The translations under genes and the position numbers were made by a program. Shown here piece after piece: positions 20,015 through 57,300 of a stretch of 64,000 bases of DNA (the first letter of the stretch is position 1; every line of letters starts with the position of its first letter). The stretch is from Anadara kagoshimensis (taxonomy: Eukaryota > Mollusca > Bivalvia > Arcoida > Arcidae): positions 3,704,607 to 3,768,606 of the forward strand of contig CM037866.1 in the NCBI GenBank assembly GCA_021292105.1, in the 5' to 3' direction. Below the pieces are notes generated by a model. The model saw only the letters and a list, made by a program, of their open reading frames with translations, searched no databases and had not been told where the DNA came from.

Positions 20015-23000
20015 TAAAGAGGCGGTAGGTAGTGTTTATATATAGAGGTGGTTACTATAGCAGGTTTTACTGTATAGACAGGTGGTCAATATAGAGGTGG
20101 TTACTATAGCAGGTTTTACTGTATAGACAGCTGGTCAATATAGAGGTGGTTACTATAGCAGGTTTTACTGTATAGACAGCTGGTCAATATAGAGGTGGTT
20201 ACTACAGCAGGTTTTACTGTATAGACAGCTGGTCAATATAGAGGTGGTTACTATAGCAGGTTTTACTGTATAGACAGCTGGTCAATATAGAGGTGGTTAC
20301 TATAGCAGGTTTTACTGTAGAGACAGGTTCTGTTTATATAGAGGTGGTTACTACAGCAGGTTTTACTGTATAGACAGCTGGTCAATATAGAGGTGGTTAC
20401 TATAGCAGGTTTTACTGTATAGACAGCTGGTCAATATAGAGGTGGTTACTATAGCAGGTTTTACTGTATAGACAGCTGGTCAATATAGAGGTGGTTACTA
20501 TAGCAGGTTTTACTGTACAGACAGCTGGTCAATATAGAGGTGGTTACTATAGCAGGTTTTACTGTATAGACAGGTTATGTTTATATAGAGGTGGTTACTA
20601 TAGCAGGTTTTACTGTATAGACAGGCTCTGTTTATATAGAGGTGGTTACTATAGCAGGTTTTACTGTATAGACAGGTTCTGTTTATATAGAGGTGGTTAC
20701 TATAGCAGGTTTTACTGTATAGACAGGTGGTCAATATAAAGGTGGTTACTATAGCAGGTTTTACTGTATAGACAGTTTGTCAATATAGAGATGGTTACTA
20801 TAGCAGGTTTTACTGTATAGACAGCTGGTCAATATAGAGGTGGTTATTATAGCAGGTTTTACTGTATAGACAGGTGGTCAATATAAAGGTGGTTACTATA
20901 GCAGGTTTTACTGTATAGACAGTTTGTCAATATAGAGGTGGTTATTATAGCAGGTTTTACTGTATAGACAGGTTCTGTTTATATAGAGGTGGTTACTATA
21001 GCAGGTTTTACTGTATAGACAGGTTCTGTTTATATAGAGGTGGTTACTATAGCAGGTTTTACTGTATAGACAGGTGGTCAATATAAAGGTGGTTACTATA
21101 GCAGGTTTTACTGTATAGACAGCTGGTCAATATAGAGGTGGTTACTATAGCAGGTTTTACTGTATAGACAGGTTCTGTTTATATAGAGGTGGTTACTATA
21201 GCAGGTTTTACTGTATAGACAGGTGGTCAATATAGAGGTGGTTACTATAGCAGGTTTTACTGTATAGACAGCTGGTCAATATAGAGGTGGTTACTATAGC
21301 AGGTTTTACTGTATAGACAGGTTCTGTTTATATAAAGGTGGTTACTATAGCAGGTTTTACTGTATAGACAGCTGGTCAATATAGAGGTGGTTACTATAGC
21401 AGGTTTTACTGTATAGACAGGTTCTGTTTATATAGAGGTGGTCGCTATAGCATGTTTTACTGTATAGACAGGTTCTGTTTATATAAAGGTGGTTACTATA
21501 GCAGGTTTTACTGTATAGACAGGTGGTCAATATAGAGGTGGTTACTATAGCAGGTTTTACTGTATAGACAGGTTCTGTTTATATAAAGGTGGTTACTATA
21601 GCAGGTTTTACTGTATAGACAGCTGGTCAATATAGAGGTGGTTACTATAGCAGGTTTTACTGTATAGACAGGTTCTGTTTATATAGAGGTGGTCGCTATA
21701 GCATGTTTTACTGTATAGACAGGTTCTGTTTATATAAAGGTGGTTACTATAGCAGGTTTTACTGTATAGACAGGTGGTCAATATAGAGGTGGTTACTATA
21801 GCAGGTTTTACTGTATAGACAGGTTCTGTTTATATAAAGGTGGTTACTATAGCAGGTTTTACTGTATAGACAGGTGGTCAATATAGAGGTGGTTACTATA
21901 GCAGGTTTTACTGTATAGACAGGTGGTCAATATAGAGGTGGTTACTATAGCAGGTTTTACTGTATAGACAGCTGGTCAATATAGAGGTGGTTACTATAGC
22001 AGGTTTTACTGTATAGACAGCTGGTCAATATAGAGGTGGTTACTATAGCAGGTTTTACTGTATAGACAGCTGGTCAATATAGAGGTGGTTACTATAGCAG
22101 GTTTTACTGTATAGACAGCTGGTCAATATAGAGGTGGTTACTATAGCAGGTTTTACTGTATAGACAGCTGGTCAATATAGAGGTGGTTACTATAGCAGAT
22201 TTTACTGTATAGACAGGGGGTCAATATAGAGGTGGTTACTATAGCAGGTTTTACTGTATAGACAGGTTCTGTTTATATAGAGGTGGTTACAATAGCAGGT
22301 TTTACTGTATAGACAGGTTCTGTTTATATAGAGGTGGTTACTATAGCAGGTTTTACTGTATAGACAGGTTCTGTTTATATAGAGGTGGTTACTATAGCAG
22401 GTTTTACTGTATAGACAGCTGGTCAATATAGAGGTGGTTACTATAGCAGGTTTTACTGTATAGACAGCTGGTCAATATAGAGGTGGTTACTATAGCAGGT
22501 TTTACTGTATAGACAGCTGGTCAATATAGAGGTGGTTACTATAGCAGGTTTTACTGTATAGACAGCTGGTCAATATAGAGGTGGTTACTATAGCAGATTT
22601 TACTGTATAGACAGGGGGTCAATATAGAGGTGGTTACTATAGCAGGTTTTACTGTATAGACAGGTTCTGTTTATATAGAGGTAGTTACAATAGCAGGTTT
22701 TACTGTATAGACAGCTGGTCAATATTGAGGTGGTTACTATAGCAGGTTTTACTGTATAGACAGGTTCTGTTTATATAGAGGTGGTTACTATAGCAGGTTT
22801 TACTGTATAGACAGCTGGTCAATATAGAGGTGGTTACTATAGCAGGTTTTACTGTACAGACAGCTGGTCAATATAGAGGTGGTTACTATAGCAGGTTTTA
22901 CTGTATAGACAGGTTCTGTTTATATAGAGGTGGTTACTATAGCAGGTTTTACTGTATAGACAGGTGGTCAATATAGAGGTGGTTACTATAGCAGGTTTTA

Positions 23001-23758
23001 CTGTATAGACAGCTGGTCAATATAGAGGTGGTTACTATAGCAGGTTTTACTGTATAGACAGCTGGTCAATATAGAGGTGGTTACTATAGCAGATTTTACT
23101 GTATAGACAGGGGGTCAATATAGAGGTGGTTACTATAGCAGGTTTTACTGTATAGACAGGTTCTGTTTATATAGAGGTAGTTACAATAGCAGGTTTTACT
23201 GTATAGACAGCTGGTCAATATTGAGGTGGTTACTATAGCAGGTTTTACTGTATAGACAGGTTCTGTTTATATAGAGGTGGTTACTATAGCAGGTTTTATT
23301 GTATAGACAGCTGGTCAATATAGAGGTGGTTACTATAGCAGGTTTTACTGTATAGACAGCTGGTCAATATAGAGGTGGTTACTATAACAGGTTTTACTGT
23401 ATAGACAGGTTCTGTTTATATAGAGGTGGTTACTATAGCAGGTTTTACTGTTTAGACAGTTTGTCAATATAGAGGTGGTTACTATAGCAGGTTTTACTGT
23501 TTAGACAGCTGGTCAATATAGAGGTGGTTACTATAGCAGGTTTTACTGTATAGACAGGTAATGTTTATATATAGAGGTGGTCACTACCAAAGGTTTTACT
23601 GTATAGACAGGTAATGTTTATATATAGAGGTGGTCACTACCAAAGGTTTTACTGTATAGACAGGTAATGTTTATATATAGAGGTGGTCCCTATAGCATAT
23701 TTTACTGTATAGACAGGTGGTCAATATAGAGGTGGTCACTATAGCAGGGTTTACTGTA
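20015..23758. repeat. 3.7-kb satellite of 49/51-bp monomers
   Basis: About 75 copies of 'tatagaggtggttactatag' + 'caggttttactgtatagaca'. Two monomer types alternate: 49 bp with 'gctggtcaa' and 51 bp with 'ggttctgttta'. The monomer end 'caggttttactgta' looks like the TA-flanked terminus of a MITE (compare 'cgaggttttactgta' at 5553). Marker variants reveal higher-order repeats: 'ggtcgctatagcatg' recurs at 251 bp, and 'gcagatttt' (22593, 23089) and 'gtagttacaatagc' (22681, 23177) both recur at 496 bp. ORFs on either strand are repeat shadows. Confidence 0.95.
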
Positions 23759-26799: not shown

Positions 26800-27065
26800 A
26801 ATTCCAAATATGTAGATAAGGCAATCTTTTGTGTGGGGTAATTTTCATATAAATTTTTTTATTCTTTGTAAAACGTGTTTCACCATTGTGTACAGTTCTT
26901 CTTGATACATTCATTAATATGTAACAAGAAGAAACGTGCACAACGGTGAAACATGTTTTACAAAAAAAAATTCAGTTATGTTTTAGAAAACATTTTAACT
27001 TATTTTTAAGTTTTTTATATATAAAATTACCTCACACAAAGGATAAACTTTATCGACATATTTGG

Positions 27066-27069
<4 letters not shown>
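26800..27069. repeat. Large inverted repeat (hairpin)
   Basis: The left arm starts 'aattccaaatatgtagataa', and the right arm ends 'cgacatatttggaatt'. Other paired segments are 'ttttgtgtggggtaatttt' / 'aaaattacctcacacaaa' and 'gtgtttcacc.ttgtg.ac' / 'gtgcacaacggtgaaacatg'. The turn is at 26904-26925. The right arm carries an extra ~40 bp. It abuts a (TA)n tract. Confidence 0.85.

Positions 27070-27099
<30 letters not shown>
27070..27099. repeat. (TA)n microsatellite between two hairpins
   Basis: About 15 TA dinucleotides separating the inverted repeats at 26800 and 27126. Confidence 0.95.
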
Positions 27100-27101
<2 letters not shown>

Positions 27102-27125
27102 CAAAAATGATTTCAAGCACAGAAA

Positions 27126-27316
27126 ATATAAAGTTCTTGTTTAAAAAAGAAAACGACAGAAAAAACTTTCATTTTGCTCTAGCGCTTTCATGTTTTCAGC
27201 ACTCTTCAGGAGAATAATGTTCCTTTATGCTCCTGAAGAGTGCTGAAAGCATGAAAACGCTAGAGCAAAATGAAAGTTTTTTCTGTCGTTTTCTTTTTTA
27301 AACAAGAACTTTATAT
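27126..27316. repeat. Near-perfect 87-bp-arm palindrome
   Basis: Arms 27126-27212 and 27230-27316 match with about two mismatches around a 17-bp loop. The left arm reads 'aaagttcttgtttaaaaaag' ... 'gctctagcgctttcatg'; the right arm is its complement. It is TA-flanked on both sides. High arm identity implies a recent origin or ongoing gene conversion. Each arm holds a hammerhead-like core. Confidence 0.92.
27228..27267 (+). ncRNA. Hammerhead-ribozyme-like motif
   Basis: In order: stem I strand TGCTC (27228-27232); core CTGAAGA (27233-27239; position 7 may be any base); stem II GTGC/GCAT with loop TGAAA; GAAA (27253-27256); ACG linker; CTA at 27260-27262, fitting the NUH cleavage rule; and GAGCA, complementary to TGCTC. 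All invariant hammerhead bases are present. Stem III is minimal and has an A.C mismatch; the opposite arm of the palindrome has G.C there but a weaker stem I and stem II. Minimal stem III is known in hammerheads of Penelope-like elements. Activity is untested. Confidence 0.5.
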
Positions 27317-27319
27317 ATA

Positions 27320-27770
27320 TATATACAAATGTACAAATTTTGCGAAACATAATTCACGCGAAAATTACGCAACTTCATGTGTTTTTAAATAAGATAAATC
27401 TTTATCATAATTACATTACACAAATATAAGTTCAATCTCCTTGTCTTTATTGACTTGTCTATAAATAGAAAACTTTTCCCGAATTGTAACGTCGTGTTTT
27501 CTGTGTATGTTATTTTTCATCATAAAACACAGTCTCCAGAGATTGGATACATTTGTTTAAAGACCATCGTTCTAGCAGTGAGAATGTTTCTATGATGTAA
27601 ATGAAGAAAAATGGTTCTTTGAAGAAAGAAGCCATTTATTTAAATGGCGTATATTGTATTTATCTGTGTATTAACTGTATCATCAATCCCAAAACTCAAA
27701 CAATATAAGTCATGTTATAAAAATCATAATACACACATGTAATATCATTCTTGTTTCTATGGTTAACGAC
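27320..27770. other. AT-rich sequence, nothing recognised
   Basis: 27330-27365 has 'ttgcgaaacataattcacgc', like the interior of TACTGTA MITEs. Otherwise no features. Confidence 0.45.
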
Positions 27771-35496: not shown

Positions 35497-36022
35497 AGAC
35501 TGAGTTGAGTTGAGTAATATAAGTTACATGGTTTGTAAGTGTCCGGTACGGAATGATACAGGGTCAGTAGGAAAGATACCGGGTGAGGCCGCAGCCGCAG
35601 TATTTTTGCGCGTGTGGCTATGTACGGAATGATACTGGGTTGGTCATGCGATTCGATTTAGCCAATCATTTCCAAAGATTTTAGTCAGAGGTAGGGTAAT
35701 GGTGTCTGATGTCCCAGTCAAGAATATTTCACTTTTATCGAGACATCGTCAGCTATAGGCAAAGATGCAGAAATTTTACCTATGCATTGTGCTGATGGCA
35801 TGATACAACAGGGTTTTTTATCATGCCATGCCTACCATGAAATAGGACCTTGTTTATTTATAGTTCCCATCCGAAAGAACCTTGACTTTCATTTCGAAAT
35901 GCAGAGTGCTTGGCGAAAAAACAATCACTACCCATTTTCTGGGTCACACCTGGCTGGGGATCGAACCCACGACCTCCCACGTACGAAGCGAGCACTCTAC
36001 CAACTGAGCTACCGCAGAGGAT
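35497..36022 (-). mobile_element. tRNA-derived SINE, intact head, ~185-bp insert
   Basis: Right end: 'gatcgaacccacgacctccc' and 'accaactgagctaccgcaga' are an excellent reversed box B and box A. The tail motif 'gagttgagttgagtaat' at 35497 is separated from the rest ('gtaatggtgtctgatgtccc', 35697) by about 185 bp of unrelated sequence, with 'gtaat' at both junctions. Confidence 0.85.
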
Positions 36023-54354: not shown

Positions 54355-57300
54355 ACAAGAGGCCCATGGGCCTGATACGCTCACCTGATAACTAATGGCT
54401 AGCTGATAGATTTAAAGAAAACATAAATACTAAACCCCAATGACTTTTTTCTTTACATCATGATAAACGTTGTATCATTACCTACAACATTCTAGTATAC
54501 ATGCCTATACAAAAAGTTAATAGTTTTCAAGATAATTAACCATTTCAGTATTGTTTCACATCCGTGACCTTGACCTTTGAACCTATGACCTTTTTCTATA
54601 CATCAAAATGATCATTGTATCGATACCTACAACATTCTAATATACTTGCCTATACAAAATGTTGATAGTTTTCGAGATAATTAACCATTTGGGTATTGTT
54701 TCGCATCTGTGACCTTGACCTTTGAACCCATGACCTTTTTCTATACATCAAAATGACCGTTGTATCAATACCTACAACATTCTAATATACATGCCTATAA
54801 AAAATGTTTATAGTTTTCGAGATAATTAACCATTTGGGTATTGTTTCACATCTGTGACCTTGACCTTTGAACCCATGACCTTTTTCTATACATCAAAATG
54901 ATCGTTGTATCAATACCTACAACATTCTAATATACATGCCTATACTAAATGTTTCTAGTTTTCGAGATAATTAACCATTTCGGTATTGTTTCCCATCTGT
55001 GACCTTGACCTTTGAACACATGACCTTTTTCTATACATCAAAATGATCGTTGTATCAATACCTACAACATTCTAATATACATGCCTATACAAAATGTTGA
55101 TAGTTTTCGAGATAATTAACCATTTGGGTATTGTTTCGCATCTGTGACCTTGACCTTTGAACCCATGACCTTTTTCTATACATCAAAATGATCGTTGTAT
55201 CAATACCTACAACATTCTAATATACATGCCTATACACAATGTTTATAGTTTTCGAGATAATTAACCATTTCTGTATTGTTTTGCATCTGTGACCTTGACC
55301 TTTGAACCCATGACCTTTTTCTATACATCAAAATGATCGTTGTATCAATACCTACAACATTCTAATATACATGCCTACACAAAATGTTTATAGTTTTCGA
55401 GATAATTAACCATTTGGGTATTGTTTCGCATCTGTGACCTTGATCTTTGAACCCATGACCTTTTTCTATACATCAAAATGATCGTTGTATCAATACCTAC
55501 AACATTCTAATATACATGCCTATACAAAAAGTTTATAGTTTTCGAGATAATTAACCATTTGGGTATTGTTTCACATCTGTGACCTTGACATTTGTTCCCA
55601 TGACCTTTTTCTATACAACAAAATGATCGTTGTATCAATACCTACAACATTGTAATATACATACCTATACAAAAAGTTTATAGTTTTCGAGATAATTAAC
55701 CATTTGGGTATTGTTTCGCATCTGTGACCTTGACCTTTCAACCCATGACCTTTTTCTATACATCAAAATGATCGTTGTATCAATACCTACAACATTCTAA
55801 TATACATGCCTATACAAAATGTTTATAGTTTTCGAGATAATTAACCATTTGGGTATTGTTTCGCATCTGTGACCTTGACCTTTCAACCCATGACCTTTTT
55901 CTATACATCAAAATGATCGTTGTATCAATACCTACAACATTCTAATATACATGCCTATACAAAATGTTTATAGTTTTCGAGATAATTAACCATTTGGGTA
56001 TTGTTTCACATCTCTGACCTTGACCTTTGAACACATGACCTTTTTCTATACAACAAAATGATCGTTGTATCAATACCTACAACATTCTAATATACATGCC
56101 TATACAAAATGTTGATAGTTTTCGAGATAATTAACCATTTGGGTATTGTTTCGCATCTGTGACCTTGACCTTTGAACCCATGACCTTTTTCTATACATCA
56201 AAATGATCGTTGTATCAATACCTACAACATTCTAATATACATGCCTATACACAATGTTTATAGTTTTCGAGATAATTAACCATTTCTGTATTGTTTTGCA
56301 TCTGTGACCTTGACCTTTGAACCCATGACCTTTTTCTATACATCAAAATGATCGTTGTATCAATACCTACAACATTCTAATATACATGCCTACACAAAAT
56401 GTTTATAGTTTTCGAGATAATTAACCATTTGGGTATTGTTTCGCATCTGTGACCTTGATCTTTGAACCCATGACCTTTTTCTATACATCAAAATGATCGT
56501 TGTATCAATACCTACAACATTCTAATATACATGCCTATACAAAAAGTTTATAGTTTTCGAGATAATTAACCATTTGGGTATTGTTTCACATCTGTGACCT
56601 TGACCTTTGTTCCCATGACCTTTTTCTATACAACAAAATGATCGTTGTATCAATACCTACAACATTGTAATATACATACCTATACAAAAAGTTTATAGTT
56701 TTCGAGATAATTAACCATTTGGGTATTGTTTCGCATCTGTGACCTTGACCTTTCAACCCATGACCTTTTTCTATACATCAAAATGATCGTTGTATCAATA
56801 CCTACAACATTCTAATATACATGCCTATACAAAATGTTTATAGTTTTCGAGATAATTAACCATTTGGGTATTGTTTCGCATCTGTGACCTTGACCTTTCA
56901 ACCCATGACCTTTTTCTATACATCAAAATGATCGTTGTATCAATACCTACAACATTCTAATATACATGCCTATACAAAATGTTTATAGTTTTCGAGATAA
57001 TTAACCATTTGGGTATTGTTTCACATCTCTGACCTTGACCTTTGAACACATGACCTTTTTCTATACATCAAAATGATCGTTGTATCAATACCTACAACAT
57101 TCTAATATACATGCCTATACAAGATGTTTATAGTTTTCGAGATAATTAACCATTTGGGTATTGTTTCACATCTCTGACCTTGACCTTTGAACACATGACC
57201 TTTTTCTATACATCAAAATGATCGTTGTATCAATACCTACAAGATTCTTATATACATGCCTATACAAAAAATTTATAGTTTTCGAGATAATAATTATAAT

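Follow-up and report, generated by a model that had tools for sequence, protein, structure and literature searches.

The DNA analyzed here, a stretch of 64,000 nucleotides from Anadara kagoshimensis that we call the window, contains a palindrome that is very probably a small, defunct Penelope-like element (PLE) insertion: two 5'-truncated 3' ends of the pseudo-LTR (pLTR), each bearing a hammerhead, lie head to head in a TA microsatellite. The initial annotation had proposed an inverted retroelement end that bears a ribozyme, and that proposal is upheld and made more specific, since we read the two ends as the pLTR pair of an endonuclease-containing PLE. This interpretation is carried by family membership, the location of the motif 3' of an RT/GIY-YIG ORF, 5' truncation, inverted pairing, the single tail of each inverted copy, and the covariation of stem I in related families. 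Against it stand Pfam matches that fall below cut-off, the lack of an Rfam hammerhead, dimer folds of L009 and L073 that are not the energy minimum, and 15 of 32 relatives in which the hammerhead motifs were not found.

Structure of the palindrome

Inverted-repeat analysis placed the two arms at 27126-27217 and 27225-27316, each 92 nt long, 97% complementary to one another and separated by a spacer of 7 nt. The place and the near-perfect match of the arms are as first described, with the measured 92 nt replacing an earlier arm length of 87 bp. The features of the insertion are as follows.

27069..27098, no strand: (TA)15 repeat, left edge of the insertion and its probable target (by tandem-repeat finding; TA also borders other inverted copies)
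27099..27125, minus strand: PLE 3' tail, inverted, at the left end only (by tail match in L008, the window locus)
27126..27217, minus strand: left arm, an inverted 5'-truncated pLTR 3' end (98% to the L017 pLTR)
27175..27214, minus strand: probable left-arm hammerhead relic, core 27209-27180, with mismatches in stem I (U.C) and stem II (C.A)
27218..27224, no strand: 7-nt spacer, the head-to-head junction of both truncated copies (by inverted-repeat analysis)
27225..27316, plus strand: right arm, a 5'-truncated pLTR 3' end without tail (99% to the L017 pLTR)
27228..27267, plus strand: probable right-arm hammerhead relic, core 27233-27262, expected cleavage at 27262/27263, with an A.C mismatch in stem III
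27312..27325, no strand: right-edge TA repeat, carrying on from the CTTTATAT of the tail-less end

The insertion is a fragment and not a whole element: it consists of both truncated ends only, and no ORF is present inside the window copy.

Other features of the window were recorded along the way. A second inverted-repeat element, at 26800-27069 with an inner palindrome at 26859-26970, adjoins (TA)15 on the left, and sequence similar to it adjoins the TA edge of the family copies L012 and L019. A tRNA match at 35952-36013 on the minus strand scored 33.8 bits with Rfam and was not confirmed by ARAGORN with the bacterial code. Long tandem arrays occupy 20040-23758 (49-nt units), where the strongest GC skew of the window also falls, and 54440-57291 (145-nt units).

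Hammerhead cores in the two arms

A core in hammerhead order had been reported for each arm, and we recovered both, at 27233-27262 on the plus strand in the right arm and from 27209 down to 27180 on the minus strand in the left. The right arm (27228-27267, plus strand) reads TGCTC-CTGAAGA-GTGC-TGAAA-GCAT-GAAA-ACGC-TA-GAGCA, which bears out the earlier description of a 5-bp stem I, a 4-bp stem II with a 5-nt loop, and a core in which every base is present; to that description we add that stem II opens with a G.U pair. The stem III contrast drawn at the time, A.C in the right arm against G.C in the left, likewise held. In the left arm the core is intact and stem III is G-C, with mismatches in stem II (C.A) and stem I (U.C). 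The invariant core, C3U4G5A6N7G8A9 / G12A13A14 / A15.1-U16.1 / H17, is present in both arms and in the family copies. As to the three helices, the family has stems I and II, and stem III as a dimer only; the right arm is without one stem III pair, and in the left arm stem I and stem II each contain one mismatch.

In random sequence with the dinucleotide make-up of the window, and with at least 3 bp required in stem II and at least 5 bp in stem I, 4 motifs were found in 612 Mb (one strand), which corresponds to 0.0008 per window for both strands, and a chance match was rejected on this ground. At the same thresholds the window itself gives one match, at 27233 on the plus strand; the left arm fails this strict motif scan because of its stem I mismatch. 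The covariance-model search that had been suggested as a check came out negative, in that Rfam returned no hammerhead in the window at gathering score, nor at E<=10 within 27090-27330. We give this negative result little weight, because Rfam at E<=10 was equally negative for hammerheads in six loci that represent five PLE families of the same genome.

A dispersed family with a PLE-type coding region

We scanned the genome (1.1 Gb in 36 contigs) with the core pattern and found 50 places with at most three mismatches, 23 of them forward and 27 reverse, while the same pattern read backwards gave 0 forward and 0 reverse matches at that threshold. These 50 places are represented by 48 loci, as the left arm shares L008 with the right arm and C17:10747190 was left out. 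Six duplicates (L002, L005, L006, L013, L040 and L021) were then removed, L003 and L021 being one insertion by their flanks, for 42 distinct loci. When a 245-nt piece of the L017 pLTR was used as query, at least 48 genomic matches were obtained; the left and right arms of the window match the last 96 and 93 bases of this piece at 98% and 99%, respectively. The 48 loci read have a 3' structure in common, and family copies begin at many different 5' points. The core-matching places belong to a dispersed retroelement. The order of its parts, as seen in single loci, is an ORF ending in RLSNN-stop, the hammerhead, approximately 48 nt ending in CAAGAACTTTATAT, a tail of approximately 30 nt (TTTTCTGTGCTTGAAATCATTTTTTGGACA) and, mostly, a TA repeat. 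In L031, 106 nt separate the stop codon from the hammerhead core.

Upstream of the copy L038, the stretch L050 contains pieces of a reverse transcriptase (GTAMGTK, RFLDDCF) and, after the RT, YIGQTGNSLCERVRIHKQQI, which we assign to a C-terminal GIY-YIG endonuclease. In Pfam the L050 pieces matched RVT_1 with E 1.1e-3 and GIY-YIG with E 7.5e-4, neither of which reaches the curated cut-off; a 75-aa C-terminal fragment gave no Pfam match where the longer piece did. From these motifs we read the L050 RT as being of PLE type, and the window's family as an endonuclease-containing PLE. The coding pieces of L050 sit in different frames, and no intact element of the window's family was seen. The RT piece has at least 150 scored genomic matches, and among the matches listed two lie in open frames of more than 700 aa. 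When the RT piece was compared with PDB sequences, the single match was irrelevant (E 0.7). A scan of viral contigs was negative. Separately, an open RT fragment of 373 aa (GIPMGTNCAPLLADLFLYSYE, YIDDVL) was noted at L026:199-1317, 2.3 kb upstream of a family copy, with an RVT_1 match (E 1.2e-5) that is under the cut-off; stretches related to it occur in L025, and the fragment was set aside.

Inverted copies carry exactly one tail

The window copy is one of a group. An inverted pLTR 3' end bordered by TA is found at the left in 14 of the 42 distinct loci, and in all 14 of these the tail is present on exactly one end (both ends 0, neither 0).

Tail on the left, 7 loci: L001, L007, L008 (the window), L023, L034, L037, L042
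Tail on the right, 7 loci: L003, L009, L010, L012, L018, L027, L046

For this count, fuzzy left-end matches of L011, L014, L016 and L041 were removed by eye as false. Outside the 14, L028 and L035 show short stretches of inverted tail at the left, with no TA border, and none at the right, and so fit the rule, and L019, L036 and L048, in which the inverted pieces stop before the 3' end, have no bearing on it. By inspection, the relatives L058 and L059 have an inverted pLTR without tail before the ORF and a sense pLTR with tail.

Where the tail is missing, the sequence changes from CTTTATAT-like (variants: CTTATA, CTATA and CTTTTATA) to TA repeat or flank at 18 of 20 ends. This holds for 12 of 13 right ends, L042, which leads to TG, being the exception, and for 6 of the 7 left ends, with L027 as the exception. 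Dropped from the right tail-less ends were L022 and L041, which have partial tails, and L001, whose match lies in the flank. No target-site duplication is readable, the insertion being within a TA repeat.

The Penelope elements of Adineta vaga are described in PMC3846280 as having the same layout of inverted pLTR plus tail, with an optional 31-bp tail and palindromes at the head-to-head junctions, and PMC11167929 describes a PLE protein that cuts and extends both strands and favors AT-rich DNA. On the strength of this layout and this activity we prefer, by inference, priming from both cut strands. We advance, as a tentative reading, that PLE insertions in this genome are often primed on both cut target strands at once, at the tail on one and at an internal UUUAUAU, by TA microhomology, on the other. 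The enzyme would cut the TA repeat on each strand, and each cut strand would prime reverse transcription; one strand would prime at the tail end, and the other would pair with the internal UUUAUAU and so give rise to the tail-less end, after which the two short cDNAs would be joined in the middle. If this is true, both-strand priming leaves a signature of exactly one tail, and short cDNAs on both sides leave near-perfect palindromes with a ribozyme on both strands.

The PLE origin could also be combined with a different source of the inversion, either snap-back self-priming along a single template or two independent insertion events, an account that we regard as possible and rather doubtful. 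Self-priming is how the head-to-head PLE inversions and their palindromes are explained in PMC3846280, and in the window the junction falls at almost identical pLTR positions in the two arms, 149 and 153 in the L017 query, as snap-back predicts. However, both outer ends of the window copy abut TA, one of them tail-less and breaking at CTTTATAT, which a simple one-end snap-back copy does not give, and the halves of other inverted copies are very unequal in length. The one-tail count behind the two-strand reading is a genomic footprint that bears on PLE priming, a matter on which PMC3846280 and PMC11167929, as far as their accounts of it go, suggest different things.

Hammerheads of related families

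Hammerheads also follow the ORF in related PLE families of this genome, at 85 nt past the stop in L055, 88 nt in L060 and 136 nt in L061, and, in variant form, at 94 nt in L057. Long open frames are present in the families of L055 and L057. When four family motifs were searched in 32 related loci, 17 had one and 15 did not, a division to be read with the provision that the 15 include remote PLEs and that some of the stretches may end too early. The covariation alignment comprised seven rows, namely five loci and both window arms, from four families in all. In this alignment 89.2% of cells pair, and both partners have changed in 7 of 11 pairs. The covariation score of 0.459 was reached by 0 of 500 shuffles, which averaged 0.158, and sliding gave a maximum of 0.143; the observed number of further pair types was reached by 20 of 500 shuffles. 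Changes on both sides affect 6 of 6 pairs in stem I, 1 of 3 in stem II and none in stem III.

Stem III is self-complementary, as AGCGCU or, in L055, AGUACU. In two-molecule folding, the double hammerhead is the minimum for L060 and L061, and lies close to it for L009 (-24.1 against a minimum of -27.6 kcal/mol) and L073 (-23.9 against -27.5 kcal/mol), so that in the four family copies folded it is at the energy minimum or no more than 3.6 kcal/mol from it. By these models the hammerheads of the related families are predicted to be of the dimer type reported for PLEs, and in intact elements a pair of hammerheads would form one common stem III and cleave in dimeric form.

A hammerhead-like site that reads TTGAAAA instead of CTGAAGA (U3/A8 for C3/G8) is present in L057 (oriented 3777), L053, L058, L059, L071, L075 and L077. 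It has ACGT as stem III and a stem I of only approximately 3 bp, and is identical at all nine matched places (7 of 32 loci). This sequence could reflect decay, or an exchange of both partners of the C3-G8 pair in the core; literature searches returned no paper on natural hammerheads with a change from C3-G8 to U3-A8, and none on Naiad PLEs together with a hammerhead. We also note a CRE-like octamer, TGACGTCA. Of 17 related loci, 15 have it no more than 150 nt upstream of their hammerhead; in the window's family it is so placed in 8 of 48 loci, many of these 48 being truncated.

Activity of the window copy

The initial annotation had raised the possibility of cleavage as a dimer. For the family this suggestion is sustained by modeling, with its self-complementary stem III (AGCGCU) and a double hammerhead near the minimum; for the window copy it is not, with predicted dimer energies of -10.7 kcal/mol for the right arm and -3.5 kcal/mol for the left, compared with -24.1 kcal/mol for the family copy L009, and a strand (27099-27330) that folds as a single hairpin at -139.5 kcal/mol (z -22.6). 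Dimer cleavage by the window copy is thus unlikely on these models. Conservation of the core in other copies, to which the initial annotation had also looked, is likewise divided: between families the core is kept while stem I covaries, whereas within the window's family the core varies like the rest. There, 21 of 516 core positions and 37 of 946 other positions are variable in 43 loci (p 0.89), and 21 of 504 and 36 of 924 in the 42 distinct loci (p 0.78), a test limited by the picking of loci with no more than three mismatches to the core pattern. Because of the lesions in the arms (the loss of one stem III pair in the right arm, and of pairs in stems I and II in the left), the -139.5 kcal/mol hairpin and the lack of core conservation among copies, we believe that the window copy is probably inactive and that its ribozymes are most likely inactive relics.

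These same data make it very unlikely that the palindrome is a ribozyme retained by the host and still active on both strands. The right arm does keep all core bases, but each arm has stem lesions, the strand folds into a hairpin of -139.5 kcal/mol, and the core varies like other sites (21/504 vs 36/924, p 0.78); this candidate was rejected for want of any excess of core conservation among copies.

We consider it extremely improbable that the feature is a DNA transposon of the foldback or MITE kind, or a hairpin resembling a microRNA, with a coincidental hammerhead: a near-perfect hairpin within TA-rich DNA and many sub-threshold Rfam microRNA matches are what such an origin would offer, but 0 of those matches attain gathering score, the chance expectation is 0.0008 per window, most copies are non-palindromic, 5'-truncated single ends (only 14 of 42 distinct loci are inverted), and an RT/GIY-YIG ORF lies upstream of the family end, and on the score, the copies and the ORF the microRNA/MITE hairpin was rejected. 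A non-LTR retrozyme, tandem, circRNA-making and equipped with type I hammerheads, as described in coral, mussel and axolotl (PMC7761336, PMC7229834), would have an identical ribozyme class and is no less improbable, as the motif sits 3' of a PLE ORF and none of the 48 loci has the motif a second time, complete and in sense orientation, within 500 nt; it was rejected because no direct tandem repeats with hammerhead were found at up to 500 nt in these loci.

Comparison with known systems

We return to the reading of the palindrome as a dead pair of PLE ends. The inverted arrangement and the ribozyme class are already in print for PLEs, and what is new is this family; none of the literature titles retrieved on PLEs with hammerheads, inverted pLTRs, bivalves or head-to-head tails concerned this element. 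As part of the window, the palindrome is no more than common transposon debris. For PLEs, it adds one family and several relatives, in one genome, with predicted dimer-type hammerheads that were missed by Rfam models.

In anatomy, the inverted pLTR plus tail resembles that of the A. vaga Penelope as described in PMC3846280, with the window insertion reduced to two inverted ends; hammerheads, which are not mentioned in the description given there, are present in the window's family. PAc, a Poseidon element of Anolis carolinensis (PMC11167929), is alike in being a PLE with a hammerhead. Its protein is reported to cleave and extend both strands and to prefer AT-rich DNA, with internal RT start sites that define the tail. 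The PAc hammerhead, according to the same report, overlaps the ORF start, whereas here the hammerhead lies 85-136 nt past the ORF stop, a position known from the 3' side only.

The closest counterparts are the minimal dimeric PLE hammerheads of Cervera and de la Pena 2014 and Lunse et al. 2017, as summarized in PMC7761336 and PMC6155905. Shared with these, to the extent that they are characterized in those summaries, are a minimal helix III, a hammerhead located in the pLTR and a predicted dimer mode of action. Compared with the same summaries, the window's family appears to differ in having U at position 11.1, so that stem II starts with a G.U pair, and a stem III insert of four bases, GCGC, that is complementary to itself.
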